Source: a virus. Taken from it: 30,793 bases of DNA. A program made the translations under genes and the position numbers. The stretch lies in IMG/VR virus record IMGVR_UViG_3300009374_000025, positions 1-30,793 of that record; one strand, written 5' to 3'. Of this stretch, positions 1,451 through 25,147 are shown piece by piece. Position 1 is the first letter of the stretch, and each line of letters starts with the position of its first letter. The notes under the pieces are model-generated. The model ran no database searches. It saw only the letters and a list, made by a program, of their open reading frames with translations, and had not been told where the DNA came from.

Positions 1451-2229
1451 AAATAATATACGATTCAACAAACAAAATATCGGCGTTGTCTGCTGACTCG
1501 GAAGATGGGAGTTATCCAGTTGAGAATCTGGAAGACGAGCATCCAAAGAAATTGTGGAAGGCAGCAAGTGGAGTTACAAGGGCCACGTTGACTTTGACGA
1601 TGTTGCCGAATGCGTCTGGGGTGGCGTTGTTTAATACGAATGCTACATCAGTCACCGTTACTGTTTCTACAGGGTTGCCGATCTCGTGGGGTGGGTCTAC
1701 TGTGTGGGGAGGAGATACAGTGTGGGCCGGTGTCGATTTGTCCACGGATTTGTTCGATTTGTCGCCCAGCAATGTAGGAAGTATGTGGGCTGAATATACA
1801 GAGAAGACCGGCCCACACGTAATTCAAATAACACTTGAGGGAGATTCAACCCTTCAAGCCGGTATCCTTCGAGCAGGAACGGTTTATGAGTTCAATGATC
1901 CAATGTTGGGGATTTTCGAGACGTTGCGAGATTTTTCCATTGTTATGGAATTGAATAACGGGGCCACCTATATTCGCAAACGGGATATTGTGCGCCAGTT
2001 CAACTTTCGGGTTCCAATCCTTCGCCAGCAGGCAAGCGCAAATGATTTTTACACATTTCTCCTTGATATCATTCAACAGCGAGGGCCGTTGGCGTTGCCT
2101 TGGAGGATCTCGTCAAATTCAGATGATACGGAATGGATTGTGTATGCAAGACCGGCTGTTATGCCGGGTGGTGATCATAGTTCTAAGGAATATACTTTTG
2201 TTGATGTGACTCTTTTGGAGGTACTCTAA
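1447..2229 (+). CDS. Putative minor tail protein
   Basis: A 260-residue protein that starts in a 4-base ATGA overlap with the previous gene, so translation is probably coupled. The first half is Thr/Ser/Val-rich beta-type sequence with a short Trp/Gly repeat (SWGGSTVWGGDTVWAGV, residues about 79-95). The second half is a mixed alpha/beta region. It has no signal peptide or membrane segment. It ends directly before the next ATG, with GGAGG at 2217-2221 serving as ribosome binding site for that gene. Function is inferred only from its place in the tail-tip gene series. Confidence 0.45.
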   Translation: MKIIYDSTNKISALSADSEDGSYPVENLEDEHPKKLWKAASGVTRATLTLTMLPNASGVALFNTNATSVTVTVSTGLPISWGGSTVWGGDTVWAGVDLSTDLFDLSPSNVGSMWAEYTEKTGPHVIQITLEGDSTLQAGILRAGTVYEFNDPMLGIFETLRDFSIVMELNNGATYIRKRDIVRQFNFRVPILRQQASANDFYTFLLDIIQQRGPLALPWRISSNSDDTEWIVYARPAVMPGGDHSSKEYTFVDVTLLEVL

Positions 2230-2802
2230 ATGTCTGAAGCAAGATACGCAACCGGGTTAACGGGCGGGACAGCCACAGATCTGGATTTCATCGACGGAGA
2301 CGAATTGAGCAATGATGATTTCGCTTTCACTCTCGTGGGATCTCTTTTGTATGTTCATAAACTTGACGCAACATCCGGGGCGGCAGAAAGTTCACCGGAT
2401 GTAATTGCGCCAGATACCAATCCCGGAAATAAGCGATGGTTGTTACAGCGAGTATTTGGTGCGGATTTGTCTGCTCAAGTTTCGAATAAAACGGGCGATT
2501 TCGTTTTGACTTCTTCTGAACTTGGGAAATCTGTTAGGATGAATTCTTCTGACGACAAAACATTTACTTTTCCAAGCGTAGGGGCGGACGAAGACGGAAA
2601 CCGTATGACGCTTTCAAGGATCGGGACGGGAAAGCTAACTTTACAAATGGTGGACAGCGATATTATTGGAGACTCAAACGCAACAGGCACTTTATTTATT
2701 CCGGCAAATACCGGGTTGGCTTCCATAACAGTTGAATATGTCCATGCGATTGTGACTTGGGTAATAGTCTCATTTGCCGGGGCCGGTTATACGACAACAT
2801 AA
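2230..2802 (+). CDS. Small structural protein, fibre- or tip-associated
   Basis: A 190-residue beta-rich protein with no signal peptide. The start is well supported by GGAGG about 8 bases upstream. The sequence is rich in Gly, Thr, Ser and Asp. A segment near residues 85-120 (KTGDFVLTSSELGKSVRMNS) resembles beta-sandwich tail-fibre or head-decoration modules in which short strands alternate with charged turns. No catalytic residues are visible. It sits between tail-tip genes and the large adhesin-like gene, so a small fibre or fibre-attachment protein is the most likely role. A capsid decoration protein is less likely from its position. Confidence 0.4.
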   Translation: MSEARYATGLTGGTATDLDFIDGDELSNDDFAFTLVGSLLYVHKLDATSGAAESSPDVIAPDTNPGNKRWLLQRVFGADLSAQVSNKTGDFVLTSSELGKSVRMNSSDDKTFTFPSVGADEDGNRMTLSRIGTGKLTLQMVDSDIIGDSNATGTLFIPANTGLASITVEYVHAIVTWVIVSFAGAGYTTT

Positions 2803-2814
2803 GGAGATCTAAAA

Positions 2815-5181
2815 ATGAAAAAACAATTAATGGGGTTCTTTTTTATTTTGCTTGCGGCGTTTTTGGTTCTTGCTCCAAGCACGGTTCATTATGGCAAAGA
2901 GGACGTCAGTCACAATCTCAAGCACCTCCTCTACCCCACCACCTACAACAACCTCTACAAAGCCGGTTGGGAGCCAGCTTTTTTCAACCAGCAGTGGGGT
3001 GGAGCGCATGGTGGGGAGCAACCTCATGGTGGTGGTGCTGATGTTTGGTTTGAGACAGGTTATATTCCAAATGACGGAACTGTTGGCAATTCTCTTGGTC
3101 ATCATGCCTCTGGTACTTGGGCGGCTCAGTCTTTTAAGGTGTCTCAGGCTATAACGGTAAATGCTGTTTGGGTTAAATTATTTAAGGAAGGAAATCCACA
3201 AAAAGATGCAGAGCCACTAATAGCTTATCTTGCTTCTGCAATTCCAAACGGATCTTCTCCGACTCTTGTAACTAATGGCACGAGTAATGCTATTAACGGC
3301 CATGATCTGGTGACTGCTGAGAATTGGCCGATTACAAGCAATAATGACGGCGAATGGTACAAGTTTACTTTTGCAAGTAACCCCTCCTTATCTGCTAACA
3401 CAACTTATTATCTGGTTATGAAAGCGACAGGAGCTGACGCAGTAAACTATTTCAGATGGAAATTTGAAGTAACTTCGGGTGCAGCTGTTGCGAGCTATCC
3501 ATTTGGAACTCGCTGGACAGGTGATGATGCTACACCTACTACATGGTCAGCAGACGCTAACCGTGATTTGAACTTCCTCATCGAAGCCACCGCAGCCACT
3601 CAAATGATCCAAGCATCCGGTGAGTTCGCAAACAAGATTAATTTCGTTGAGGGCAATCCACTCAATCAGTCTCAGGCACTCAGTCAACCGTATGTGAACT
3701 TCTCCGATCCTGACGAGTTCACGATGCGCTGGATTGTAGATGCTGGCATGACCGCAAGCAAGACCTTCATTGATATCCACTACGGTATGGATCACGATAG
3801 AATCAGGGTCTATACTGATGCAACCCCAAATCTCTGTGTAGAAGTTACAGAATCAGACGGTACTCAGCATACCATTACTGACGGTGATGATGATGTGAGT
3901 TCCGGTAAGCATGACTTCATGGTGTCTGTGCGCCACATGAATGACGGTTCGGATCATGTTAAGCTGATTATAAACGGTGCTGCTGATGGTACTCAAGTCT
4001 CAGACCAGTCGATAGGGATGGATGATAATTTCGCACAACTTGCTACCTATCACATGGGCGGTGGGTTTCCTGCGGCGCCGACTTGGACAGATGATCAGAG
4101 CATGGCGGCATTGCCGAGTGCTGACCCTGATTGGGTGTGGGACGTTGACGCCGGTACTCCAACTGAAGCAAACGGCATGACCGTTCAAAACAACAAACTA
4201 TACCAGAATGGTGTCGCTTATGCAAACGATTACGGAAGATATTATGCAGCAGCACCGACATTTACTAATGCTGCTGGATGGGTAATTACATGGAAGCAGA
4301 GAATAATTGAAGCCAGTAACACACTTGACGCACAAGCCCATGTTGTTAATGTGGCAGATGATACTATTGGTGCTATAATTGCCATGCATGAATATTATGT
4401 TCAGGATGTCAGCAATCTTAATACAGAATACCAGATAGATTTAACTGATAAGGAACACACATTCCTTCTTATGGGTAAGGGTTCGGATTATTTTCTTTAC
4501 ATAGACGGAAGTCTCATCTTTGACGGGACGGCAAACTTTATAACTGCTAATGCGACTGATTCTATCTATTGGGGAGATAATAGCAATGGTGCTGGATTGG
4601 ACGCTGATGTAGTAACTGATTATTTCAAGTTCTACAATACTGCATGGCTCCCCTACGAAGTCAACGACTGCACCATCTCCGAGTTCTCCTATTGGAGCGG
4701 AGACATGACCGGCCTTGCAGCAACGGCTTATAACTCAGGCTCACCGAAATCAACGAAGCAACTGGCAGGGGTGAAGGAAGATGTTGTAAAGGTGGTGCTT
4801 AAAAGCGTTCATTTGCGAGGGATTACCCGAGACCCAACAACCACAAGTACATCTCCTGTGTTACTTACAGACATGGAGCACTTTGTTTTAACTCATAATA
4901 CATTCAATATAGACTTTCATCATACAACATACAATAGTGGGGCAGGAAACGAGTGTGGTCTTATGAGCTTTATTGATGGCGCTGATAGGAACAAAGAGCC
5001 AGTTGGTGGTGTAGGTACTTTCGGTCATAGCGCACATGGAGTTTCAAAAAATGAAACACTCGGTTACAGCGATGAAATAAAACCTTTGACGGGTTTGCAT
5101 AAATACGAAGTAAGATGGGAAGTCAATGCTGGAACTCAAACTTCTTCATTGTGGAGAAGGACATTGGATATTTTGCAATAG
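2815..5181 (+). CDS. Secreted adhesin-like protein with lectin-like modules
   Basis: A 788-residue protein, start preceded by AGGAG. The N-terminus (MKKQLMGFFFILLAAFLVLA) is a clear Sec signal peptide. Residues about 90-235 look like a beta-sandwich 'choice-of-anchor' type domain (GTWAAQSFKV..., NTTYYLVMKATG). Two further stretches, about 285-400 and 450-620, look like LamG/concanavalin-type beta sandwiches (TLDAQAHVVN, YFLYIDGSLIFDG). The rest is also beta-rich. A tail fibre or host-binding protein is likely from position. However, phage fibres normally have no signal peptide, so it may instead be exported to the host surface (a moron-like product). Codon choice changes sharply within the gene: around 2910-2990, 3590-3800 and 4640-4700, codons ending in C dominate, whereas flanking parts favour T and A endings. 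This suggests a mosaic assembled by recombination. Confidence 0.55.
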   Translation: MKKQLMGFFFILLAAFLVLAPSTVHYGKEDVSHNLKHLLYPTTYNNLYKAGWEPAFFNQQWGGAHGGEQPHGGGADVWFETGYIPNDGTVGNSLGHHASGTWAAQSFKVSQAITVNAVWVKLFKEGNPQKDAEPLIAYLASAIPNGSSPTLVTNGTSNAINGHDLVTAENWPITSNNDGEWYKFTFASNPSLSANTTYYLVMKATGADAVNYFRWKFEVTSGAAVASYPFGTRWTGDDATPTTWSADANRDLNFLIEATAATQMIQASGEFANKINFVEGNPLNQSQALSQPYVNFSDPDEFTMRWIVDAGMTASKTFIDIHYGMDHDRIRVYTDATPNLCVEVTESDGTQHTITDGDDDVSSGKHDFMVSVRHMNDGSDHVKLIINGAADGTQVSDQSIGMDDNFAQLATYHMGGGFPAAPTWTDDQSMAALPSADPDWVWDVDAGTPTEANGMTVQNNKLYQNGVAYANDYGRYYAAAPTFTNAAGWVITWKQRIIEASNTLDAQAHVVNVADDTIGAIIAMHEYYVQDVSNLNTEYQIDLTDKEHTFLLMGKGSDYFLYIDGSLIFDGTANFITANATDSIYWGDNSNGAGLDADVVTDYFKFYNTAWLPYEVNDCTISEFSYWSGDMTGLAATAYNSGSPKSTKQLAGVKEDVVKVVLKSVHLRGITRDPTTTSTSPVLLTDMEHFVLTHNTFNIDFHHTTYNSGAGNECGLMSFIDGADRNKEPVGGVGTFGHSAHGVSKNETLGYSDEIKPLTGLHKYEVRWEVNAGTQTSSLWRRTLDILQ

Positions 5182-7210: not shown

Positions 7211-7331
7211 TTTGATTGTTGTTTGTTTGGTGTTAACGGGTTGCGAGATTATAGCCAAACAACGGGTTGATTACGGTCCGGGCCGGGCGGCGGAATGTTC
7301 TTCATCGATTGAGTGTCGGCTGACTTTTTAG
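7188..7331 (+). CDS. Small lipoprotein, outer-membrane spanin candidate
   Basis: A 47-residue reading frame starting at the ATG at 7188, with a second in-frame ATG at 7197. It begins MSFMRWLSLIVVCLVLTGCE, which has a charged N-region, a hydrophobic core and a perfect lipobox L-T-G-C with the acylated Cys at residue 19. The mature part is only 29 residues with two more Cys. It overlaps the preceding gene by 23 bases. Size, lipobox and place at the end of a lysis cassette fit an Rz1-type o-spanin, which links to an inner-membrane spanin and fuses the outer membrane to the inner one. It lacks the Pro-rich segment common in Rz1 proteins. Its TAG stop overlaps the TAA stop of the convergent minus-strand gene. 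Confidence 0.55.
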   Translation: MSFMRWLSLIVVCLVLTGCEIIAKQRVDYGPGRAAECSSSIECRLTF

Positions 7332-7957
7332 ATCTCCTCCACATAACTTATTTCATCTCGTTTTTCCACCCGGAATACTTTGTCTGAGTTTTCCCGGATC
7401 TCCTCTAATGAAGCCCGTTCGTCGCTAACCATTATAATTTGAAGATCCAGCTGCCGGGAGATTTCCCGGATCATAGTCAGCGCCCGGAGGTTGTCTGCAG
7501 CGCCTTTGATATGCTTGAACGGTTCGTCGTCTATAAGCGTATTGCGGGGCCGGGGTTGGCTAATACTCCAACAAGCTGTTTTCAGGCCCAGGGCGGCAAT
7601 ATCTGCTGTGCCTCCGCCTGATTCCTTCAAGGGGTCAAACTCTTTTCCGGCACGCTCAAAAAATAGATCACACTTTGTATTCCCTTTCCCGGTAATGTCA
7701 AACGTTACATTCAGTGTGTACGGATCGTTGAAGACAGATTCCAATCCCAGCGTTGCGATCTCGGACAGTCTGTATTCCAATTCCTGCTGCGTAGTCCGAG
7801 CCACCATTTGTATTACTTTCTGCGCCCGTTCTGAAATTTCAATTTCGTCTTCTTGATCTTTGATCTGAAGGTTGTACCGGGAGATCTGCGCTTCAGCTTC
7901 TTCCCGCTTTCCTTTTGCCCGTTCGACGGTTCGGCGGATCTCTGAGAGTTCGGTCAT
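7328..7957 (-). CDS. C-terminal half of a split SbcC/Rad50-like ATPase
   Basis: A 209-residue protein starting at the ATG in a TAATG junction with the preceding gene; an open frame extends further upstream but lies inside that gene. Residues 1-65 are coiled coil. Residues 70-209 form the C-terminal ATPase lobe of a Rad50/SbcC-type protein: ABC signature ESGGGTADIAALGLKTA (112-128), Walker B NTLIDDEPFKHI (139-150) and a late strand IIMVSDE. It has no Walker A. The missing P-loop half is encoded at 9250-10323, upstream in the same operon. The two should join to make one ATP-binding head that works with the SbcD-like nuclease at 8211-9131 in end processing or recombination. Confidence 0.75.
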   Translation of the reverse strand: MTELSEIRRTVERAKGKREEAEAQISRYNLQIKDQEDEIEISERAQKVIQMVARTTQQELEYRLSEIATLGLESVFNDPYTLNVTFDITGKGNTKCDLFFERAGKEFDPLKESGGGTADIAALGLKTACWSISQPRPRNTLIDDEPFKHIKGAADNLRALTMIREISRQLDLQIIMVSDERASLEEIRENSDKVFRVEKRDEISYVEEI

Positions 7958-8214
7958 TATGTCCTCATTGGCGCTGCTTCTCCGGGCGGTTTCATTTTCT
8001 CTTTCAATTCCAATATTCCGTCGTCCAGCTTGTCCTGATTTGTTGCGACTTCTTCCCTCCAACCCTGAAGTTTCTTTTCCGCTTGTTCGAGATCCGCAAC
8101 ACCGAATTCATCGCTCATGTTTTTATAGTGGGTTTGTAATTCCCCTTCCAGCCGGTTGACTGATGTTTCTGCTTCCGAGATCTCGTTTTTGATTCTCAAT
8201 AATTCATCGCTCAT
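7957..8214 (-). CDS. Small coiled-coil protein
   Basis: An 85-residue protein starting at MSDELLRIKN, where ATGA overlaps the stop of the SbcD-like gene. GGGAG is 8 bases upstream. Almost the whole sequence is charged helix with heptad-like spacing (ISEAETSVNRLEGEL, LEQAEKKLQGWREEV). It lies between the nuclease and the C-terminal half of the SbcC-like ATPase. It may supply part of the coiled-coil arm that a complete SbcC would have in this position. That role is inferred from position only. Confidence 0.6.
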   Translation of the reverse strand: MSDELLRIKNEISEAETSVNRLEGELQTHYKNMSDEFGVADLEQAEKKLQGWREEVATNQDKLDDGILELKEKMKPPGEAAPMRT

Positions 8215-9131
8215 TCGATTGTCTCCCACACTCGATCCTTGATAGGTTTCCTCACTCGGTTATTATCAAAATGGATTTCCATATTTTTCCTGAAGTCAAT
8301 CTCTCCGGTCATGTCCTGTTTGCTATGACGAACGAATGCTTGAAGCCGTTTGTCCTTTTCATTCTTTGGGTCTATGTGGTCACGGGTTACAGCGTTTTTA
8401 TTGATGGGTATGTATACAGGTTCAACTTCGTTCGTCTCAGCGTCCCACAAATAGACGCGGGGCCGGTGGTCGATTTGTTCTGCGGTCTGTCTCATAAGCG
8501 ATCCGGGATTGACTAACAACCGCCCTTTGTGTTCGACGACGAACGGGTTGTGATTGTCTCCGGTCAATATTAGATCGTAACAGGGCCATTTTTTTAATAG
8601 GGCGTGTCCTTTCGGGGCGTTCTGGCCGGGCCAAAGCGGTTTGTTTTCGATAACCATCTGGTGAGACATGGCGACGTTTCGTTTCATCCCTTTCCCGTCC
8701 ACCCGTTTTTGTGAATCCCTGTGTTCAATTTCTATTCCATATGGAAAAGGATGAACGTCGAAATATCCGCAGGGATAGTTTTCAGCAGATTTCCAAACAG
8801 ACCCACAAGACATTAACACGCCCAGCCCAGATTCATCCAATCGGTCCAGTTGATGATTCGGGAGATCGTGTTGGCCGGGAATTACAACAATATGTTTGTT
8901 GTGAAATAGACTAATTATCCACTCAAGAAGCCAGCAGGGCCAACCCATTTGTCCGTGGGGTTTATTTCCTATGTCTCCAGCTATCAGGATTGGAATATGA
9001 TCGTATTGAGCGGATAGATTTAAAACGAATTTGACTTTTTCAATCATAGTGTCAACGAATTCATCCGTGCGACAGATCGGTGTATCCGGGCGCAGGTGCC
9101 AGTCAGCTGTTAGTATGGCGCGGGGATTCAT
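8211..9131 (-). CDS. SbcD/Mre11-like nuclease (metallophosphoesterase)
   Basis: A 306-residue protein. I chose the ATG at 9131 because it overlaps the preceding TGA (ATGA); a TTG at 9140 is also in frame. Calcineurin-type phosphoesterase motifs appear in order: ADWH (D10, H12), GDIGNKP (52-58), PGQHD (85-89, with Gln where the family usually has GNHD), MSHQM (about 153) and TGDNHNPF near residue 190. The C-terminal third looks like the capping region of Mre11/SbcD. With the two ATPase halves on either side it should form an SbcCD / T4 gp46-gp47-type complex that resects DNA ends or opens hairpins. Confidence 0.85.
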   Translation of the reverse strand: MNPRAILTADWHLRPDTPICRTDEFVDTMIEKVKFVLNLSAQYDHIPILIAGDIGNKPHGQMGWPCWLLEWIISLFHNKHIVVIPGQHDLPNHQLDRLDESGLGVLMSCGSVWKSAENYPCGYFDVHPFPYGIEIEHRDSQKRVDGKGMKRNVAMSHQMVIENKPLWPGQNAPKGHALLKKWPCYDLILTGDNHNPFVVEHKGRLLVNPGSLMRQTAEQIDHRPRVYLWDAETNEVEPVYIPINKNAVTRDHIDPKNEKDKRLQAFVRHSKQDMTGEIDFRKNMEIHFDNNRVRKPIKDRVWETIE

Positions 9132-9253
9132 TTGGGGCAACGTCCTGTGTTTTTATCTCGGTTGCGGCGTCTGTTATTTGAGATTCGGCGGCGCTCTTTG
9201 AATTCGTGATACGTTTCGTTCACATAACGTTTTCCAACTTTAGGTTTTTTCAT
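9128..9253 (-). CDS. Very small basic protein
   Basis: A 41-residue protein starting at MKKPKVGKRYVNETYHEFKE, with the ATG overlapping the stop of the upstream ATPase gene (ATGA) and a strong GGAGG 6 bases before it. The C-terminal half is very basic (ERRRISNNRRRNRDKNTGRC). Both ends are coupled to neighbours by ATGA overlaps, which supports translation. It could be a nucleic-acid-binding accessory of the SbcCD complex, but no family is recognised. Confidence 0.5.
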   Translation of the reverse strand: MKKPKVGKRYVNETYHEFKERRRISNNRRRNRDKNTGRCPK

Positions 9254-10323
9254 GTTCTCCTCCGTCGCGTTGTTTTCGTTTTCAATGGGCACGGTTGATC
9301 GTAAAAAGGGCAGATCTCTGGGGCCAGTCGTTCGAATTCTTTTTTGTTCCACGCCAGTTTTTCTTTTGTTTTTGTCAATGTTTTTTCGGTCAGATCGATA
9401 TTGATTTTCATCTTTTTAAGCAGATGGATTTCGTTTGTTAGATCTTCGCAAAGCGTCTGTTGGAGTTTTAATGTTTCGAGATCCGGTTTGAGGGCGGCTA
9501 TTCGGGCGGATCTCTCTTTTGATTTTTCATTTTCCCGGATCTGTAAAACAAATTGTTTCAATCGGACGCCTTTTTGTGTTCTATTTTCGATTGATTCCTT
9601 GAGGACAAGTAAAGACGCTAATTTATCTTTTGCTTGTAACCTCGGTGTTAATTCGGCCACTTTTTTATCGATTTCGGCAATATTCTCTGTTGTCGTTTTT
9701 AATATCTGGATATTTCGGTGGGTCTGATTAATAGTTTGCTGAAGGGTTTCCAGTTCTGCAAGGTATCCGTCAGCTGAATCAATCCATTTATATCCGTTCA
9801 GTTTTTCCTTATTCTCATTCAGCAAATAAATCGTATTCAACCGGGCGTCATTTTCTTTTTTCAATCGGGATGCGATACGGGAAAGGGATTCATCTATGAC
9901 CTCAATGTTCACCAGCTTGTTAATGAATTTTGCCCGTTGACCGTTGGTATCGCTCAGGAGAAAAAAGCCGTCAAATTGATGGCGAATTGTTAACCCGGAA
10001 AAGCGCAGGGCGGCTTGTACAGGGTCAGGGACGGATGCGCCCACCGCTTTCATAGATTTTCCATTCAGCCGGTACTCATTCAGCGTCTTCGTTTTAATCC
10101 GGGAAACCGTATCACCTTCAGAAGTCTTCACAATAACTTCAGCAGAGTCTTCCCGGAGCATCCGAGAGTTCACCGGGCGGTTGTACGCCACCCATTCAAA
10201 GGCCCAGATGATGCTGGACTTCCCGTGATCAGTTTCGCCTACGATGACGTTGACTCCCGGATCGAAAACAAATGTCTGATTTTCATAACTTCGAAAGCCG
10301 ATGAGTTGGACGGACTCTATCAT
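9250..10323 (-). CDS. N-terminal half of a split SbcC/Rad50-like ATPase
   Basis: A 357-residue protein that begins like Rad50/SbcC: MIESVQLIGFRSYENQTF, then Walker A GETDHGKSS (29-37), then a Q-loop region QFDGFFLLSD (about 115-124). Residues about 145-335 are coiled coil. The end carries CPFYDQPCPL (C338 and C345), where a zinc hook would be expected, but the spacing is C-X6-C, not the C-X-X-C of standard hooks. There is no Walker B or signature motif; those are in the separate protein at 7328-7957. The last codons CGA CGG AGG AGA ACA give an RRRRT tail and also form the ribosome binding site of the next gene. Start is an ATGA overlap with the preceding gene. Confidence 0.8.
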   Translation of the reverse strand: MIESVQLIGFRSYENQTFVFDPGVNVIVGETDHGKSSIIWAFEWVAYNRPVNSRMLREDSAEVIVKTSEGDTVSRIKTKTLNEYRLNGKSMKAVGASVPDPVQAALRFSGLTIRHQFDGFFLLSDTNGQRAKFINKLVNIEVIDESLSRIASRLKKENDARLNTIYLLNENKEKLNGYKWIDSADGYLAELETLQQTINQTHRNIQILKTTTENIAEIDKKVAELTPRLQAKDKLASLLVLKESIENRTQKGVRLKQFVLQIRENEKSKERSARIAALKPDLETLKLQQTLCEDLTNEIHLLKKMKINIDLTEKTLTKTKEKLAWNKKEFERLAPEICPFYDQPCPLKTKTTRRRRT

Positions 10324-10511
10324 ATGATATATCCGCCATCTATTTTAGTACAGTGACAAGGATTCAATTCGCAATCTCGGCAAGGTTCAAAGTCAAAGCC
10401 GGGACACGGACATTCGTCCATGGCCATAGCACAGTTATCAGGATCGAGTCTCCAAGTACAATAATCGCATTGAATACAATTTTCGCAAAATCTTTTGTTT
10501 AATTCATTCAT
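10320..10511 (-). CDS. Small Cys-rich, probably zinc-binding protein
   Basis: A 63-residue protein starting at MNELNKRFCENCIQCDYC; the ATG overlaps the stop of the RuvC-like gene. It holds 11 Cys, in pairs such as CENC, CDYC, CPC, CRDC and CHC, enough for two or three zinc sites. Its stop overlaps the start of the SbcC-like N-half gene. It is probably a zinc-knuckle accessory for the recombination genes on each side. A metal or DNA-binding role is inferred from composition. Confidence 0.6.
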   Translation of the reverse strand: MNELNKRFCENCIQCDYCTWRLDPDNCAMAMDECPCPGFDFEPCRDCELNPCHCTKIDGGYII

Positions 10512-11017
10512 ACAAATTGTCTCCGGCACCAGTCAGCAATTAGTAGGGCGTCTGCCCGTCCGTCTTTTCCTCCGCCGCGTGGGCCGTATAATTCAGCGCC
10601 CGGAAACATTCTGCCGGCAGCGGCAAGTTTGGGTTGTTGGTCCTGGGCTTTATGTAAAATTCCCTTTTGCCAAGTTTGCGGGGCCGGGAGAAGGAATGGG
10701 ATTTCAAGTGTCGCCAATATCCCTCTCCAAATTCCGAAGTTTGTTCCAAATGAAAACATAGATCGGACGCCTTGACCGGGCATAGAATGGACTTTTTCAA
10801 TTGCACCTTTCAGATTAGAGTCGCCACACATTAGTTTTCCTAAAATAACTATTTGCGCAGCTTGTAGTTCGTCTCCAGGCCAATCTCTTAATTGGATAAT
10901 ATTTTGGAGCGGATCTATGAAAGCGATTGCGCCAATTGCGCCTGGATCGATACCGATGAAAATCAGGTCCGATTTAGAATGGTCCGTCTCCGTTTGTCCT
11001 CTTTTGAACTTTCCCAT
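10508..11017 (-). CDS. RuvC-like Holliday junction resolvase
   Basis: A 169-residue protein from the ATG at 11017, which has GAGGAG just upstream. An ATG at 11029 is also open and would add four residues. RNase H-fold motifs are visible: first strand with catalytic Asp FIGIDPGAIGAIAF, the Glu strand AIEKVHSM followed by FSFGTNFGIWRGIL, and the C-terminal GRADALLIADW with the closing acidic residue. This is the layout of RuvC and of phage RuvC-like resolvases. It should cut four-way junctions left by recombination-dependent replication. It overlaps the upstream small gene by 44 bases and the downstream Cys-rich gene by 4. Confidence 0.85.
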   Translation of the reverse strand: MGKFKRGQTETDHSKSDLIFIGIDPGAIGAIAFIDPLQNIIQLRDWPGDELQAAQIVILGKLMCGDSNLKGAIEKVHSMPGQGVRSMFSFGTNFGIWRGILATLEIPFLLPAPQTWQKGILHKAQDQQPKLAAAGRMFPGAELYGPRGGGKDGRADALLIADWCRRQFV

Positions 11018-11201
11018 TATTCTCCTCATGTCTCTTTGCTACAAAGGTTTGGCATTCTTCGTATAGATCGTAAAATGCCTGTTGGTACGATCTCTCATCG
11101 TCGTCTTTTAAGTCCTCTATGATTTCGGCGTTGATCTTTTCCGATTCATAGTTGCCAAGATTGAATGTTTTTGCGTATGAAACCGTTATCGTGATTCCCA
11201 T
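10974..11201 (-). CDS. Conserved-type small phage protein (GNYES motif)
   Basis: A 75-residue protein. Its ATG overlaps the stop of the RecA-like gene (TAATG), with GGAG about 9 bases upstream. It begins with a beta hairpin-like TITVSYAKTFNLGNYESEKI and continues as a charged helix. Small proteins with a 'NLGNYES' start are common next to recombination and ssDNA-binding genes in phages, though I know no assigned function. Its last 44 bases are shared with the next gene in another frame. Confidence 0.6.
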   Translation of the reverse strand: MGITITVSYAKTFNLGNYESEKINAEIIEDLKDDDERSYQQAFYDLYEECQTFVAKRHEENNGKVQKRTNGDGPF

Positions 11202-12319
11202 TATTCAAATCTCCTTTTTCGCCCTAAATGTAATCCTTCTTCCTTCAACCTCCAGATTCCACCTGTGAGCGCCCGGAGATCCGTCAAGCAATTGTTTTTT
11301 TCGATATAGCGTATCAATGAGTGCCGGGTGCCCTTGAAATCAAGTTCCTTCGCTAATATGGTTTGCTTCTCCGTCTTCCAGTGTTTTGTTTTGGTTAGGA
11401 AGTCAATACAAGATCCAATATCATCCACGCCATAATCTTCGAAGATATCAAAACGGACGTTTCGACGTTTCCCGGTGGACTTGTTTTTCATCACTCTGGC
11501 TTCCACTTTGTTTCCAATTTTCTCTTCAATTCCCATGCTTGTCTTTGTAATTTGTTGAAGGATTTTTAACCATGGGCGTTGACTGGAATAAAAAACCGGG
11601 GCATGTCCTCCACTGGTTGTCTTTGCTCCTGGTATCCTGCTTTTGAAATCATCTCGTTCTTGCTGTACTATGAAAAGACCGCTTTCACTTTTCGCCATCT
11701 TGTTAGTGACCATTCTCAACACCTGTCCTAATCCCTTGGCAATTTCGGCGTTGTATGACCCTTTGATCTCCTTGCGCTCCTCTTCACTTTTAGATTGGTT
11801 TAACGCTTTCAGATATTCCTTTTTTAATTCCTCTTCAGACGATAGAGAATCCAGCGAATCCATAACGTATATGAAAGGGCGTCCGGTATCACAACGAAGC
11901 AATATGTTGGCTTTTAGATCCTGAATTGTTTCTGAATAAATGGGCGATCCTTCTTTGTCTTTTCGGGGCGGTTCCAATCGTTGCGCCAAACGGGGGCCAA
12001 AGATCTTGAGAATATTGAATGAATTGCTTTCCTCTCCATCGTCGTACACGAGGTCATACGGATCGAATCGGGGATCAATAGAGCATTCGGCCAACATAGT
12101 AAGCATCAGCAAAGTTTTCCCGGCTGCTGATTGTCCCGGAACGGTAGCCATTTTCCCGAATTTGTACGCACCTTCAATATGATCTGTACAGGCTAAATTG
12201 AGAAGGGTGGAACCGGAATGTATTAGCTTTTCCGGGTCAATAGGATCGTCGTCAACTTCTGGTTCTTCAGTGCCTTCTTCGATCTCATCAACCAGTTCAG
12301 TGGTGCGGCGTCTTTTCAT
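11201..12319 (-). CDS. RecA/UvsX-like recombinase
   Basis: A 372-residue protein starting at MKRRRTTELV, where the ATG overlaps the preceding stop (ATGA). Walker A is GQSAAGKT (62-69). Walker B is FIYVMDSLDSL (about 149-159), followed by LFIVQQERDD, a strand with polar residues that may correspond to the RecA L1 region. This is the RecA/UvsX core. An acidic N-terminal stretch (EIEEGTEEPEVDDD) precedes it. The C-terminal region ends in LGRKRRFE and includes what looks like a small helical DNA-binding unit. It should catalyse strand exchange in recombination-dependent replication with the ssDNA-binding protein, the resolvase and the SbcCD-like complex of the same operon. Confidence 0.85.
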   Translation of the reverse strand: MKRRRTTELVDEIEEGTEEPEVDDDPIDPEKLIHSGSTLLNLACTDHIEGAYKFGKMATVPGQSAAGKTLLMLTMLAECSIDPRFDPYDLVYDDGEESNSFNILKIFGPRLAQRLEPPRKDKEGSPIYSETIQDLKANILLRCDTGRPFIYVMDSLDSLSSEEELKKEYLKALNQSKSEEERKEIKGSYNAEIAKGLGQVLRMVTNKMAKSESGLFIVQQERDDFKSRIPGAKTTSGGHAPVFYSSQRPWLKILQQITKTSMGIEEKIGNKVEARVMKNKSTGKRRNVRFDIFEDYGVDDIGSCIDFLTKTKHWKTEKQTILAKELDFKGTRHSLIRYIEKNNCLTDLRALTGGIWRLKEEGLHLGRKRRFE

Positions 12320-12546
12320 TCGGGTGTTCCTTTTTCCAAAAATCGTTTGAATCGGGCCTTGTCCACCTTCCACCGGCCACCGATCTTCTTGCCCAGTGCG
12401 TAGTCCCTCAGCCATTTGTGAAGAGTTACCCGGCTGACGTTCCCGTATCCAGCTTGGAATACGAGTTTCATTGCGGCGTTAACGTCAATGTATTCGATAA
12501 CAACCGGCTGAGGATCGGTGTTTAGTGGTGGAAACGAATTAGCCAC
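12316..12546 (-). CDS. Small helix-turn-helix DNA-binding protein
   Basis: A 76-residue protein from a GTG start at 12546 (MANSFPPLNT). The start is decided by GGAG 8 bases upstream and an 8-base overlap with the previous gene; the longer open frame would run far inside that gene. The segment IDVNAAMKLVFQAGYGNVSR-VTLHKWLRDYALGKKIGGRWKVDKARFKRFL looks like an excisionase/MerR-type winged helix: a first helix, the turn, a recognition helix and a 'GGRW' wing. It could be a regulator or a DNA-architecture factor. It ends in an ATGA overlap with the recombinase gene. Confidence 0.7.
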   Translation of the reverse strand: MANSFPPLNTDPQPVVIEYIDVNAAMKLVFQAGYGNVSRVTLHKWLRDYALGKKIGGRWKVDKARFKRFLEKGTPE

Positions 12547-13678
12547 GGCGGCGTCTCCGATTAGTTTGGGGTGGCGCTTGATCAGCGCTATCAGGCGCTG
12601 CTCCCGGTCTTTGACGACGATTTTGCGATGATCCCGTCTCATTTTCCGATGGCGGCGTTTCATTTTCCGGTCCTCCAACAGAGTCTTTTGAAATTCGGTC
12701 CTGCTCTATGGAACAAGCCCGGAATGTTTTTTCATCGCAATCGGACTGACAAGCCGGTATACTCCCACAATCTTTTCCCCAATTTCCACCGTGAGGACAG
12801 CCAGCGGGTTCATCTGGGGGCAGGTCTGTTTGTGCGTCTCCTCCGGGGCGGCGTCTCCGGGTTGTATCCGGGCTGTTGGGTGGTTCCTGTCCTTCTCCAT
12901 CGTCTTCCATGTGAAGCATCATAGCGGCTATATCGGAATATGAAGCGATCACCAGACAGGCGTCAAACGAAACAGCGGAGTCGATTATGTCATCGTTGTA
13001 CGGTTCTCTTTTAAGAAACGTGAACGAGTGGGCTTCATTGAATTTGTTTTTTCCAATGGATTTTTCTTTTGCAAGGAACTGAACTGTTTTCCCTTCTTCG
13101 GGATCAGAGAACATCTCTAACCCTTCTTCTCCAACTTCGAGTGCTTCCATTAACATTTCTTCAAAGTTGGACCACGCGCAATGCCACAACTGGATGTCTT
13201 TTTCTTGATCGTCGTAATCAAAAACGTTGTAGAAACAGCGCCAGGAGGGCTTCAGGGCGTTTATGACTTTGTCATCCTGCTTGTCCTTGTCTTTGTCCCA
13301 TTCTTCAAATAGTCCTTCGCACAACGGGCACTTTTTCCCGAAAGCAAGCCGAAGACAGACAACAATGGCGTTGTCTTCTCCCACGTTAAAATGAACAGGG
13401 ACTTCCAATTTGTAGTCTACATATCCGGGCGGAAGTTCGGTGGGAGAACCGGAATGGGTGCGCATTCTTTGATACCATTCCTGTGTAACTTCCCAAGGGA
13501 TAATGTCGATCAAGTTTTTCTTATTAGACGACATATCATATTTCTGGGGTTTCTTTTCGATCCCGGCCAAATCCAGGATTTGTTTACGTCCGAGTCCGGT
13601 CTGGCCTTTTTCATCTACTGCTCGTTTGGTTCGGGTTTTGAGCTTTTTTCGTCTCTCTTCAGCGGATACTCTTGACAT
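12539..13678 (-). CDS. Single-stranded DNA-binding protein, gp32-like
   Basis: A 379-residue protein; AGGAG lies 9 bases before the ATG. The basic N-terminus (RRKKLKTRTKR) would serve in cooperative binding. The core includes VPVHFNVG (H96) and CPLC (C117, C120), the zinc-site pattern of gp32-type OB-fold proteins, then FYNVFDYDD. After about residue 265 comes a long disordered acidic and Pro-rich tail with a Cys cluster (GCPHGGNWGKDCGSIPAC, then two more Cys), like the C-terminal Cys motif of many phage ssDNA-binding proteins. It ends NRRRRRG, where the Arg codons also form the ribosome binding site of the next gene. It protects single strands for the replisome and loads the recombinase. Confidence 0.75.
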   Translation of the reverse strand: MSRVSAEERRKKLKTRTKRAVDEKGQTGLGRKQILDLAGIEKKPQKYDMSSNKKNLIDIIPWEVTQEWYQRMRTHSGSPTELPPGYVDYKLEVPVHFNVGEDNAIVVCLRLAFGKKCPLCEGLFEEWDKDKDKQDDKVINALKPSWRCFYNVFDYDDQEKDIQLWHCAWSNFEEMLMEALEVGEEGLEMFSDPEEGKTVQFLAKEKSIGKNKFNEAHSFTFLKREPYNDDIIDSAVSFDACLVIASYSDIAAMMLHMEDDGEGQEPPNSPDTTRRRRPGGDAQTDLPPDEPAGCPHGGNWGKDCGSIPACQSDCDEKTFRACSIEQDRISKDSVGGPENETPPSENETGSSQNRRQRPGAAPDSADQAPPQTNRRRRRG

Positions 13679-13800
13679 TTTGCCTTCTCCTTTTCTTCAT
13701 AAATTGTTTTGACTATTATTTTTACAACCATTCTTACCAATATTAATATCAGTGGAATAGCAATTCCAACCGCTATTAAGAATTCAACTTTTTCTTTCAA
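13615..13800 (-). CDS. Small single-pass membrane protein
   Basis: A 61-residue protein with a TTG start inside a TTGA overlap with the preceding stop; GGAG is 6 bases upstream. Residues about 6-30 (FLIAVGIAIPLILILVRMVV) form one membrane helix, followed by a charged tail. Its 3' part overlaps the ssDNA-binding protein gene by 64 bases in another frame. A TTG start and a long overlap make it less certain, but the ribosome binding site and clear membrane helix support it. Function unknown. Confidence 0.5.
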   Translation of the reverse strand: MKEKVEFLIAVGIAIPLILILVRMVVKIIVKTIYEEKEKAKCQEYPLKRDEKSSKPEPNEQ

Positions 13801-14318
13801 CTTTGTCTCCGTCTTCTGTTTTGGATCGCAGCGTTTCCTGCTTCCCGGACAGCGGAAGACATATCATCAATTCGATCACGGGCCAATTTTAATATGTCAT
13901 GAAGGTTGCGGGGTTCGTTCGGTCCCTCGAACCAGTCCTGCTTTAACAGCTCAATAGCGCCTTCCAATGAATAGCGACGGTCAACCATAGCGTATGTTGC
14001 GCCTTCAAGTACTCCTTCTTCGTATTCAGCTTGGATCAACCGCCTGATCACCCGGATATAGCGTTTGTCCAGACGATATGCAGCTTCAACTTTCGTGTCG
14101 GTGGGTTTGACCCCTTGGCCCAGAAATAGGATCGGGTTGTTGTTGATTTCCCGGATGAGCTTTGACCGTATAGTTTTCTTTTTCTCTTCAAAAAACTTTT
14201 TGCGCTTTTGTGCTTTCCGGTATTCTTTAATGTACTTGAACCGAAGTTCGGGCTGGGCCAGAAGTTCCACGTCAAGGTTTTCTACGTCGATTGAAGCATC
14301 AATTTTGAATTCGCTCAT
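13797..14318 (-). CDS. Conserved-type phage protein next to ssDNA-binding protein
   Basis: A 173-residue, mostly helical and charged protein, with AGGAG upstream of the ATG. The middle (EYRKAQKRKKFFEEKKKTIR) is a very basic helix, and the C-terminal half is mixed alpha-helical. The protein ends NRRRRQS, where the Arg codons are the ribosome binding site of the next, TTG-started gene. The gene stands directly before the ssDNA-binding and recombinase genes, so a recombination mediator or replication accessory is plausible. No family motif is visible. Confidence 0.55.
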   Translation of the reverse strand: MSEFKIDASIDVENLDVELLAQPELRFKYIKEYRKAQKRKKFFEEKKKTIRSKLIREINNNPILFLGQGVKPTDTKVEAAYRLDKRYIRVIRRLIQAEYEEGVLEGATYAMVDRRYSLEGAIELLKQDWFEGPNEPRNLHDILKLARDRIDDMSSAVREAGNAAIQNRRRRQS

Positions 14319-14363
14319 TTTGTAGTCTCCTGTTAGATTATAAGGTCAAACGGGCAAAACCTA

Positions 14364-15308
14364 TTAGTCAGAATACACCAGCGCGCATGCCCGGACTAAT
14401 CCAGGAAAGCCGGTGTTGTAAAACGGTTCATTAAAACAGTCCAGTACCAGTATGGCCTTGGGCTCCCAATTCTTTAAAAGGGCGGTTTTCATAAATGCCA
14501 GAACCAGACGCCTAATGCCTTCAGGATCTTCTTTTTCAAGATCCTTTAAAATGGGGGCAACGTCATTAGTCCAAATGCCCGGATTGATTAGAGCTTTGGC
14601 AAGATCAAACGCCTTTTTTCGGGTGTCCGAAAAGCTGACGATGGATTCCATTCGGGCGTCTGGTTCAACATCGATCACTTGATCCAGCATTACGAGTGCT
14701 TCCCGTGGGCATCCTTCGCAGGTATCAGCAATTTGTGAGATCTCGTCACCAGTAAAGTCTTCCACGCCTTCACTCGCAAGGATCTCTGTTATCAGCCGCA
14801 TGATTAATCCTTCACGCAGCGGCTTGACTTCATATTTGGAACAGCGGTTTTTAATTGTCTTGAGAAGTTTAGATGGATCTGTGGTACACAAAAGAAAGTA
14901 TACGTGATCAGGGGTGTCTTCCAACGCTTTTAACAGAGAATTCTGGAAGTCCTTCGTGGCCTGATGACATTCGTCAAGTATATATACACGGCATTTGCTG
15001 GCGGTGTTCACCGGGGCAAAATTCATTGTCTTTAAGATTTCACGGGCCGTATCGATACCGCGCATATCACTGGTATTGATTTCCTGAAAATCCAGATTAG
15101 CGGCTTTGTTTATCTTGGGAGGGCAACCGAGTGCGGCGGATACGATCCGGGCCAGCGTAGTTTTCCCGCAACCGCTCGGACCGACAAACATCCAGGCGTG
15201 GGGCCGGTCCTCATCTCTGGCCAATATAGATTTAATGGATTTGATTGTTTCTTCATTTCCCAATATCTCGTCGAAGTCTGCGGGCCGGTAATCAATGTGT
15301 AGTGGCAT
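14364..15308 (-). CDS. DNA polymerase III clamp-loader subunit (DnaX/RFC-like ATPase)
   Basis: A 314-residue AAA+ protein starting at MPLHIDYRPADFDEILGNEE, preceded by AAGGA; a TTG further upstream is in frame but has no good site. Walker A GPSGCGKTT (43-51), Walker B YILDECHQ (109-116, DECH in place of DEAH/DExx), sensor-1 LLCTTDPSKL and NRCS (154-157, the arginine-finger SRC motif). The C-terminal part is a helical collar-like domain. The zinc module of cellular DnaX is absent, as is the long tau extension. It should load the beta clamp of 19268-20314. It overlaps the upstream small gene by 17 bases. No second clamp-loader gene (delta-like) is visible in the window. Confidence 0.85.
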   Translation of the reverse strand: MPLHIDYRPADFDEILGNEETIKSIKSILARDEDRPHAWMFVGPSGCGKTTLARIVSAALGCPPKINKAANLDFQEINTSDMRGIDTAREILKTMNFAPVNTASKCRVYILDECHQATKDFQNSLLKALEDTPDHVYFLLCTTDPSKLLKTIKNRCSKYEVKPLREGLIMRLITEILASEGVEDFTGDEISQIADTCEGCPREALVMLDQVIDVEPDARMESIVSFSDTRKKAFDLAKALINPGIWTNDVAPILKDLEKEDPEGIRRLVLAFMKTALLKNWEPKAILVLDCFNEPFYNTGFPGLVRACALVYSD

Positions 15309-15519
15309 CTTTTTTCCTTTCGTCAAGGGCTTTGTTCATGGCGGTTTTGACTTCTTCTTCAGTTAATAGGTCAATCGTTTTTCCAATGGATGCGGCGTGT
15401 TCTTTTAAGACTGCCACAGCGAATTCGGCATATTGCTTTCCCATTTCCTGCGCCAGCTGTTCCATAAATACGGTGAATGCCTCTTCAATTGTTTTACAAT
15501 CTTTGTAAGCGTCTTTCAT
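15292..15519 (-). CDS. Small helical protein
   Basis: A 75-residue helical acidic/basic protein (EEAFTVFMEQLAQEMGKQYA, LTEEEVKTAMNKALDERKK). The ATG overlaps the preceding stop (ATGA at 15516-15519), and the 3' end overlaps the clamp-loader gene. Position suggests a clamp-loader accessory, but nothing in the sequence proves it. Confidence 0.5.
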   Translation of the reverse strand: MKDAYKDCKTIEEAFTVFMEQLAQEMGKQYAEFAVAVLKEHAASIGKTIDLLTEEEVKTAMNKALDERKKDATTH

Positions 15520-22699: not shown

Positions 22700-22885
22700 T
22701 CACCCATAATGGAGAATGGTGTTACTAAGTGCCTGTAATTCGTTTGCTTTCATTTGGAAGTTTTCTTCATCGTAGGCAATTGTTTCATCTCTCGCAAGTC
22801 TGTATTGATTCAAGGCGATCATCCCTTGTATTTCGGCGTTCACGGCATATATTTGAGCCAACTGCGCAACCAACCAACTTTCCAT
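22700..22885 (-). CDS. Small helical protein
   Basis: A 61-residue, mostly helical protein (MESWLVAQLAQIYAVNAEIQ). The start is in a TAATG junction with the stop of the upstream radical SAM gene, and DUF1643 follows 3 bases after its stop. It probably forms a coiled coil or partner subunit. Function unknown. Confidence 0.5.
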   Translation of the reverse strand: MESWLVAQLAQIYAVNAEIQGMIALNQYRLARDETIAYDEENFQMKANELQALSNTILHYG

Positions 22886-24345
22886 TATAATAATCCTTCA
22901 ACAATGTTTTCTCTGAAGTCTGTCTCCGGGTTCCAGCGCCAGATAATTCCGCCATCATCGTATCCAACAGCTTCCATGCCTTTGGCCCAGTCAATACGGA
23001 AAGCGTTGTTGCCCTCTCCGTTCCAAAGCCGATGGACTGCTTCCCGGAGTTTGTCTGAAAGGAAACCGCCCATTTTGTTTACATAATTTTCAAAATCCTT
23101 CCATCGGACCATTCCGTCAGCTTCTGTGAATCTAATTTTGTCGTCAATGGTATTACCTATATTAAGTTTTCCGACAATATAGGATTGTTGTTTGATATAT
23201 AAGATTGCTCCAATCGCGCAACCCCAATTGAAACCGGCGTTCTCAAAAGCGTTTCCGACTTCACAACATATTGGATCGTCATTTTCCGGGACGTTTCCGA
23301 GATCGAACGTGGAACAGCTGAATCCTTTTGCCCGGAACAACTTCATGAATTTGCTCAATAGCAGAGATCCGATTGGCTGGCTGTCCGTAGTCAATAGGAA
23401 CATTCTCTCAAAGTCGTACTCTCGTTCATAGAAATTTCGGCGGATACCGGGATTGTTGGCGCTGTATGAATAAGTATCAAACGTGATATGGCGACACCCG
23501 GTGGCCCATACGTCTTCGATATATCCTTGAACCATTGCCTCATCATCGTTGATAAATACCATGTACGGTTCGATTCGAGCCACGACTCTCACACCGGCGT
23601 CCGAAAGCATTTTCATTGTCTTCAAGCGTTCTTTGTAAGTGGGGGCGGCTGGTTCCAGATCCTTCAGGATCTTATCGTCTGATGAAATCAGCGTCATGTG
23701 AACTGCCGCCCCACCAGAATTGTTCGCCAACGCCTGAACATAGTCTCCACGACCTACAAGGGCAGATTTGGTATTGATCATTACTGGATAACCAGCTTCA
23801 GCGAGGTATTTCAAGAGGTACAGGCTGATTTCCTTCTTCCCTTCTATGGGCAGAAAGTCTTCGAACCGGATACCGAAACGCAACGGGATACCCATTGAGA
23901 TAGCCCGTTGCACTTCGTTCCCTTTTGGGGCGGCCCCCCAGTTCTTTAAAAGTACATCTAGTTCTTTGGCGTAATATATCGGGTTACAGTGGCGAAGACC
24001 CACGCTCTTGCTGTTATCGAAGAATGACGTGTATAAGGATGCACGAAAATTATCTGCGTAGCAGTATCTGCAGCCGAAGCCACATCTCAATCCGTCCCAA
24101 ACGTCGATGTTTAGCGGCATAGGACAGGCGGACGCTCGAAGACTCACTTCAGCAAAAGAGTTGATCTCCTCCGTATTCAATAATCGCTCGTGCTTCAGCC
24201 AATGTCTGTGTTCTATATTGAATTGGTGATAGTTGGATTTTCTGCCCTTTTCCCGGATTGCGCCTTTGCCAAAAACACCGGCTTCAAGTTGAGTCCTCCG
24301 GGGCACGAAGTTTTTGATCTGGCTTCTGAGTTCGTAATAATTCAT
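22885..24345 (-). CDS. Radical SAM enzyme, spore-photoproduct-lyase-like
   Basis: A 486-residue protein. The cluster motif CGFGCRYCYA gives C88, C92, C95 (CX3CX2C), which binds the 4Fe-4S cluster that cleaves S-adenosylmethionine. SPL-type features follow: VMINTKSALVGR (188-199), LISSDDKILKDLEPAAPTYKER (219-240) and AGVRVVARIEP (250-260), where the 'EP.AP...R' pattern is typical of the SPL-like family. C-terminal Cys C360, C361 and C376 might bind an extra cluster or metal. SPL works on thymine in DNA, so a DNA-base substrate is plausible here. The gene starts in an ATGA overlap with the small zinc-ribbon gene. A second SPL-like protein is encoded 1.6 kb upstream. Confidence 0.8.
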   Translation of the reverse strand: MNYYELRSQIKNFVPRRTQLEAGVFGKGAIREKGRKSNYHQFNIEHRHWLKHERLLNTEEINSFAEVSLRASACPMPLNIDVWDGLRCGFGCRYCYADNFRASLYTSFFDNSKSVGLRHCNPIYYAKELDVLLKNWGAAPKGNEVQRAISMGIPLRFGIRFEDFLPIEGKKEISLYLLKYLAEAGYPVMINTKSALVGRGDYVQALANNSGGAAVHMTLISSDDKILKDLEPAAPTYKERLKTMKMLSDAGVRVVARIEPYMVFINDDEAMVQGYIEDVWATGCRHITFDTYSYSANNPGIRRNFYEREYDFERMFLLTTDSQPIGSLLLSKFMKLFRAKGFSCSTFDLGNVPENDDPICCEVGNAFENAGFNWGCAIGAILYIKQQSYIVGKLNIGNTIDDKIRFTEADGMVRWKDFENYVNKMGGFLSDKLREAVHRLWNGEGNNAFRIDWAKGMEAVGYDDGGIIWRWNPETDFRENIVEGLL

Positions 24346-24557: not shown

Positions 24558-25147
24558 TTTAGTATCTCCCGGACTTTTTCGATTGCGTTCAGTCCCTCTT
24601 GGACGATCTGCTCCCAGTCCTTCAGCTTGAATTCCTCGAATAACTGGCCTCTGATTCCACCATCTCCGTGATGGTCCGGGAATTCGCACAACATATAATT
24701 CCTACCACTGAAAAACCATTCGAATCCATATTCCAATATCCCTCTGGAAAAGGAGTAATGATACATGTATCCTTGTTTCTCCCGGTCCAGTATACCGATG
24801 AAATAGAATTCAGCTAATACGTGGGCCACAGCGGTCCGGGGCTGGCTTCCGCCCTTGATATCGAATACGGTTGTGGCTAAGGTTTCTTTGTGGATATAAT
24901 CGAAACAATCCCGCATTAGAAATTCAAACAGGTAATTGTCGATGGATGGATCATGGTACTTTTCGTACAAAAAGAGAAATGCCGCCCAGCGTACACCCAT
25001 TGAATCCGGGGAAAGTATCAGCCCATGATACCCTTCTTCCCAATCCCTAAGCCCAGATTCCGGGCCAACGGGTTTCCGGGCACGGTGGGTTTCCTTGCTC
25101 CACTGTCCGGGGCTGGGATATTTTTCACGGTCTTCTCTGTCGCTCAC
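24554..25147 (-). CDS. Unknown protein within the radical SAM / PLP group
   Basis: A 197-residue protein from a GTG at 25147 that forms a GTGA overlap with the stop of the PLP gene and has GGGAG 6 bases upstream. A TTG at 25168 is also in frame but has no good site. The middle (RWAAFLFLYEKYHDPSIDNY) is helical and aromatic. A later segment, SGRNYMLCEFPDHHGDGG, holds Cys, two His and two Asp that might bind a metal. I do not recognise a family. Its place between the PLP enzyme and the zinc-ribbon and radical SAM genes makes it a part of the putative pathway. Confidence 0.5.
   Translation of the reverse strand: MSDREDREKYPSPGQWSKETHRARKPVGPESGLRDWEEGYHGLILSPDSMGVRWAAFLFLYEKYHDPSIDNYLFEFLMRDCFDYIHKETLATTVFDIKGGSQPRTAVAHVLAEFYFIGILDREKQGYMYHYSFSRGILEYGFEWFFSGRNYMLCEFPDHHGDGGIRGQLFEEFKLKDWEQIVQEGLNAIEKVREILK

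Follow-up and report, generated by a model that had tools for sequence, protein, structure and literature searches.

How can an SbcC/Rad50-like ATPase work when its two ends are encoded by separate genes with a nuclease gene between them, given that in Rad50 and SMC proteins, as currently understood, a single chain folds back on itself? The question is raised by IMG/VR virus record IMGVR_UViG_3300009374_000025, which is, or may be, a fragment of a phage genome and which we analysed at its full length of 30,793 bases (henceforth the window). On its minus strand the order of translation is the N-terminal half of the ATPase (N-half), a 41-residue basic protein, an Mre11-type nuclease, an 85-residue protein and the C-terminal half of the ATPase (C-half). 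The original prediction of an ATPase split into two genes around the nuclease is borne out, with all the features that it named found in place. The same split recurs in related loci, and we consider it very probable that the four conserved genes encode one DNA-end-processing machine of the SbcCD/Mre11-Rad50 type, in which a natural break at the zinc hook divides the ATPase and the two halves are joined in trans. The genes and the motifs on which this reading rests are the following, ABC denoting the ATP-binding cassette and AF2 AlphaFold2:

9250..10323, minus strand: N-half of the SbcC/Rad50-like ATPase, 357 residues, with lobe I (Walker A and Q-loop), a helical arm and a C-terminal Cys hook
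10216..10239, minus strand: Walker A GETDHGKS, N-half residues 29-36 (GETDHGKSS, 29-37); G29, G34 and K35 in 56/56 homologues
9313..9876, minus strand: helical arm of four 47-residue repeats, N-half residues 150-337; autocorrelation peaks at 47 and 94, AF2 helices
9289..9312, minus strand: hook CPFYDQPC (CX6C), N-half residues 338-345; C338 in 56/56 homologues
9128..9253, minus strand: 41-residue basic protein, between N-half and nuclease
8211..9131, minus strand: SbcD/Mre11-like nuclease, 306 residues
7957..8214, minus strand: 85-residue two-helix protein, conserved partner
7328..7957, minus strand: C-half of the SbcC/Rad50-like ATPase, 209 residues, with a short coil, signature, Walker B and D-loop
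7610..7621, minus strand: ABC signature SGGG, C-half residues 113-116; G114 and G116 in 60/60 homologues
7523..7540, minus strand: Walker B TLIDDE, C-half residues 140-145 (LIDDEPF, 141-147); D144 and E145 in 60/60 homologues

Identity of the halves and of the nuclease

The window N-half matches Pfam AAA_23 (8.8e-18) and phrog_16465 (3e-28), an 'exonuclease' family that every N-half scanned also matches, including gp32 of the cultured Bacillus phage vB_BboS-125. The window C-half matches phrog_15167, named 'ATPase', over its full length (6.9e-15), as do 60 of 60 C-half members, among them gp35 of the same phage. For structure comparison we built family profiles from 18-20 relatives, and these divided between the chains of the same Pyrococcus furiosus Rad50 crystals: the N-half profile recovered the N-segment chains (1II8_A, 6e-12; 1F2T_A, 1.6e-10) and the C-half profile the C-segment chains (3QKR_B, 1.3e-9; 1II8_B, 4.1e-9; 1F2T_B, 1.3e-7). 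Because those crystals contain two polypeptides, a head made of two chains is feasible. The constructs concerned (1F2T, 1II8 and 3QKR) resemble the phage proteins in forming the head from separate N and C polypeptides; however, they are laboratory-made, whereas the phage split is natural and lies at the hook rather than at the base of the coil.

The AF2 model of the N-half, with a predicted local distance difference test score (pLDDT) of 85, consists of lobe I (residues 1-137) followed by helices at 140-177, 180-277 and 279-333, and it resembles the heads of SMC, RecF and Rad50 with Z of 10-13 over about 115 residues. As the SMC and RecF heads score equally well, the fold alone cannot single out Rad50, and the assignment comes from the hook, the nuclease and the sequence profiles. 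The profile matches of both halves are far too strong to be due to chance. Among the 56-60 homologues aligned there is almost no variation in the Walker A, Q-loop, signature and Walker B motifs, the glutamine of the Q-loop, Q116 of the N-half, being the same in all 56 sequences.

The partner encoded between the halves is a nuclease of the Mre11/SbcD type, whose family profile matches Mre11 (1II7, 5.4e-9) and SbcD (7DOG, 5e-7). Its metal-ligand positions D10, D53, H88, D89, H157 and H194 are invariant in 57 sequences. Around them the motifs are more variable: the histidine of DxH (H12) is present in 45/57, GNHD reads GQHD in 31/57 and GHxH reads GDxH in 43/57. The other two proteins between the halves, both of which had been pointed out in the original prediction, are indeed encoded there and differ in conservation. 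The 85-residue coiled-coil protein has homologues in the same position in nearly all loci and is modelled by AF2 (pLDDT 92) as two helices, 3-37 and 42-73, whereas the 41-residue protein has no homologue among the related loci and is probably no part of the machine.

Neighbouring genes of the locus overlap throughout, by ATGA at the junctions N-half/41-residue protein, 41-residue protein/nuclease and nuclease/85-residue protein, and by TAATG at the junction 85-residue protein/C-half; Shine-Dalgarno-like sequences precede some of them. Such an arrangement looks like that of a translationally coupled operon. Upstream, the stop codon of a 69-residue open reading frame (ORF) with 12 cysteines (10320-10529, minus strand) overlaps the ATG of the N-half; its product may bind metal and be coupled to the operon.

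Conservation of the split

A search with the C-half recovered 24 viral contigs and one with its alignment 67, which was extended by searches with the N-half alignment (327 matching stretches) and the nuclease alignment (at least 541), 80 loci of each being kept. In a first set of loci the order N-half, nuclease, small protein, C-half on one strand is found in 52 distinct loci, so that the gene order, which the original prediction suggested looking for in related phages, does recur. Five further loci of this set lack only a hidden Markov model match for the small protein, and on reading four of the five have an evident one. All four genes are present in 141 distinct loci among a total of 228. 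No ORF containing both halves occurs in the 228 loci, the N-half ORFs never exceeding 480 residues and the C-half ORFs never exceeding 280. A pattern scan of 85,000 prokaryote genomes gave one relative, on a 7 kb contig of an Ignavibacteriales metagenome-assembled genome. Single sequences from the window reached less far: a similarity search of phage DNA with 5 kb of it gave no match, a scan with its N-half sequence alone gave no relatives, and tblastn against named phages gave no match for the C-half or the nuclease and only vB_BboS-125 for the N-half.

Three named phages show the split. 1) vB_BboS-125 encodes an N-half of 471 residues ending in CPLC (gp32), a small helical protein (gp34) and a C-half (gp35), and an SbcD-like nuclease ORF (locus L001, 8247-9227) falls in a gap of its published annotation; the genome paper makes no mention of SbcC (PMC6375668). 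Between its C-half and nuclease lies gp36 (L001, 7879-8235), a protein of 118 residues that starts with MCIKC and might carry a second Cys pair. 2) LR745208, a phage of 485 kb, encodes an N-half of 455 residues ending in CPVC and a C-half of 211 residues, together with a nuclease, a small helical ORF and a clamp-like gene. 3) The actinophage Magritte encodes its N-half as gene 155 ('hypothetical') and its C-half as gene 2 ('exonuclease'); its gene 4, at first taken for the N-half by its name 'ASCE ATPase', reads as a clamp loader. The split Rad50 is thus present, as far as sequence can tell, in many uncultured phages and in at least one grown in the laboratory.

A second, full-length Rad50 in the same genome had been named as an observation that would undo the idea of a split enzyme. 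None is found in 23 phage records (up to 87 kb), in Magritte or in LR745208, 25 records of the family in all; the window's own record, a 30.8 kb fragment, can speak to this only over that length. Each of the 23 has a single AAA_23 match over the cut-off, which is the N-half, and exactly one C-half, and Magritte and LR745208 agree with them in this; in the 23, additional weak AAA_23 matches span only the Walker A region, a small part of the model.

These results bear on whether the window simply holds a damaged gene. Its copy does depart from the family at two positions, D143 in Walker B, where 55 of 60 C-halves have Leu and the window copy alone has Asp, and Y341 in the hook, as might be expected of a frameshift, an assembly error or decay in this contig. 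Set against this are the identical split in 141 distinct loci, the other conserved genes that separate the halves, the retention of the catalytic Asp144 and Glu145 and the occurrence of CX6C hooks in four relatives, and we regard damage as a negligible possibility. The original prediction had likewise argued that the split is no frameshift, and its conservation in order across many phage contigs and in several distant phages agrees with that.

The chain is cut at the CxxC: in nearly all loci an ordinary stop codon ends the N-half 7-25 residues past the hook. The structural position of the cut does not vary among the members, which would suit a scheme in which trans-splicing or protein splicing unites the pieces into a single working chain once they have been transcribed or translated. 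Such joining seems highly improbable in view of the normal stops, the ATGA and TAATG overlaps and Shine-Dalgarno-like sequences, the nuclease gene lying between the halves and the absence of any intein family among the Pfam, PHROG and NCBIfam matches.

The quantised arm and the hook at its end

Arm length, taken as the distance between the Q-loop Gln and the first Cys of the hook in the N-halves of 165 loci, falls into classes of about 175, 222, 269 and 316 residues (28, 116, 19 and 2 arms, respectively), and 67% of the arms lie within one residue of the series 222 ± multiples of 47. Among step sizes from 35 to 59 none fits better than 47, with 46 and 48 nearly as good. The same value emerges within the sequences, self-similarity over the arms being best at an offset of 47 (z 17) and next at 94 (z 11); in 48 arms less than 40% identical the offset of 47 reaches z 16.7 and is the top offset in 26. 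Since 47 is a multiple of neither 7 nor 11, this is not plain heptad periodicity. The arm of LR745208 has offsets of 44 and 88, and the number of repeats has changed several times across the tree.

The lengths of the small protein and the C-half stay constant across all these classes. An arm that changes in steps of 47 residues opposite constant partners can hardly be a simple antiparallel hairpin of fixed length, and with the two lobes on separate proteins a coiled coil between them could not lie within one chain. We had initially taken the small protein and the C-half coil for the descending strand of the arm, a view against which the quantised arm with its constant partners argues as far as full pairing is concerned, and profile comparisons gave it nothing. 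A version in which the two rebuild that strand, giving a three-piece Rad50 of ordinary shape, is a form of our preferred explanation that differs in the role of the small protein. It draws on the helical nature of this protein, its conservation and the position of its gene directly before that of the C-half; we nevertheless judge it unlikely, given the 47-residue steps beside constant partners and given that profile comparison matched the small protein significantly to neither the C-half coil nor the arm. Somewhat more plausible, though still tentative, is a Rad50 of another architecture altogether: an open-ended rod of modular 47-residue repeats that are freely gained and lost, with a free half-hook at the C-terminus (CxxC or the recurrent CX6C), a separate C-half closing the head and the small helical protein, of which each arm might bear several copies, replacing the returning strand. 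Its head subunits would be exchangeable, and therefore arm length and hook type could evolve without change in the C-half.

At the end of the arm a CxxC lies 7-25 residues from the C-terminus in 55 of the 58 distinct N-halves of the first set and at 42 residues in one more. The two without it are the window copy and that of locus L037, whose N-half (2138-3329) is broken by a frameshift or a sequencing error into a pair of overlapping frames, of which the second also closes with CPLC. In the larger set 161 of 168 N-halves have a CxxC near the C-terminus, usually as CPLC. The original prediction was right that the window has CX6C in its place. Hooks of the type CPIFDVPC, likewise CX6C, occur in four relatives (L162, L163, L164 and L167), which argues against our initial view of CX6C as a one-base decay of CxxC, and L198 has yet another variant. 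Members with CX6C are not grouped together in a tree built from the N lobe, the nuclease and the C-half, where the window stands apart from L162-L164. Unless some lineages went back to CxxC, this suggests more than one origin of CX6C.

The proposed machine and its setting

In ABC dimers an ATP site combines the Walker A of one head with the signature of the other, and in Mre11-Rad50 the head closes on ATP, the nuclease becomes free upon hydrolysis and two arms are joined by the hook. With Walker A and signature on different proteins, the heads of the phage family would have to assemble in trans from N-half and C-half. We propose that the N-half would contribute Walker A and the Q-loop, and the C-half the signature, Walker B and the D-loop, to an ABC head that would dimerise around ATP and control the SbcD nuclease. 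The free C-terminal hooks on the N-half arms (CxxC, or CX6C in the window) would link two complexes through a metal ion, and the small two-helix protein would be a further subunit, probably packed on the arm.

Several observations weigh against such a machine. 1) Where the H-loop (switch) histidine is expected, at C-half residue 179, Asp stands instead in 58 of 60 sequences, within SDER; vB_BboS-125 has His. 2) Nineteen loci have an N-half and a nuclease and no recognisable C-half in the DNA examined. 3) The constant lengths of the small protein and C-half beside a varying arm, described above, belong here too. 4) The N-half of Magritte lacks a CxxC and, with the ends of the record joined, is encoded about 39 kb from its C-half. 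Speaking for the machine, distances between N-halves correlate with those between C-halves (r 0.82, the highest value under permutation being 0.14), although simple co-inheritance would also yield this. The independent variation of the arm and the remote halves of Magritte would accord with halves that form no single head at all, the N-half serving by itself as an arm or clamp while the C-half regulates the nuclease. We think this improbable, as each half keeps its part of the ATP site invariant, which would be pointless if they acted apart, and every genome searched has exactly one of each. The joint machine remains the reading that we prefer.

With SbcCD/Mre11-Rad50 of Escherichia coli and P. 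furiosus this machine would share the ABC head motifs, the Mre11-type nuclease, the long helical arm and, in most members though not in the window, a CxxC at the arm's end as the putative hook. It differs from them in that Rad50 is two proteins cut at the hook, the H-loop His is Asp, the arm is quantised in 47-residue repeats and there is an extra conserved two-helix protein. Upstream of the split enzyme, and outside it, the window holds genes recognised by PHROG matches:

10508..15326, minus strand: Holliday junction resolvase, UvsX-like recombinase, single-strand binding protein (SSB), UvsY-like mediator and clamp loader

Beyond them follow a DNA polymerase, a processivity factor and a DnaB helicase, which complete a T4-type recombination-replication set. 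From this gene set the likely task of the machine is the resection of DNA ends for recombination-dependent replication, in which it would act with the UvsX-, UvsY- and SSB-like proteins and the resolvase. T4 gp46/gp47, the SbcCD of that phage, also serve in recombination, as would the present genes beside their UvsX-, UvsY- and SSB-like neighbours. Small ORFs lie between T4 genes 46 and 47 as well, and gp46, unlike the split family, is a single chain with both ABC lobes (PMC5105663). Elsewhere in the window two proteins (22885-24345 and 25974-27050) match phrog_13321, a family of unknown function, and a threonine dehydratase-like protein (phrog_7093; 25144-25977) is encoded between them.

Splitting of a single-chain subunit into pieces is known from the DNA polymerase III and RNA polymerase subunits of jumbo phages (PMC7824862), enzymes unrelated to Rad50. 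We found no published report of Rad50 or SbcC encoded as two genes in a literature search conducted mostly outside subscription journals, and the entries for phrog_16465 and phrog_15167 are listed apart, named differently and not linked as halves of one enzyme. The present reading would explain these two separately named phage families as just that, and the case of vB_BboS-125 illustrates that annotation can miss the nuclease gene next to the halves. The series of 47-residue steps offers a natural ruler for the question of what arm length does in Rad50, and in a two-gene system head assembly, arm length and hook chemistry would each be changeable separately. A widespread natural Rad50 cut at its hook would show that the covalent return of the chain is dispensable.

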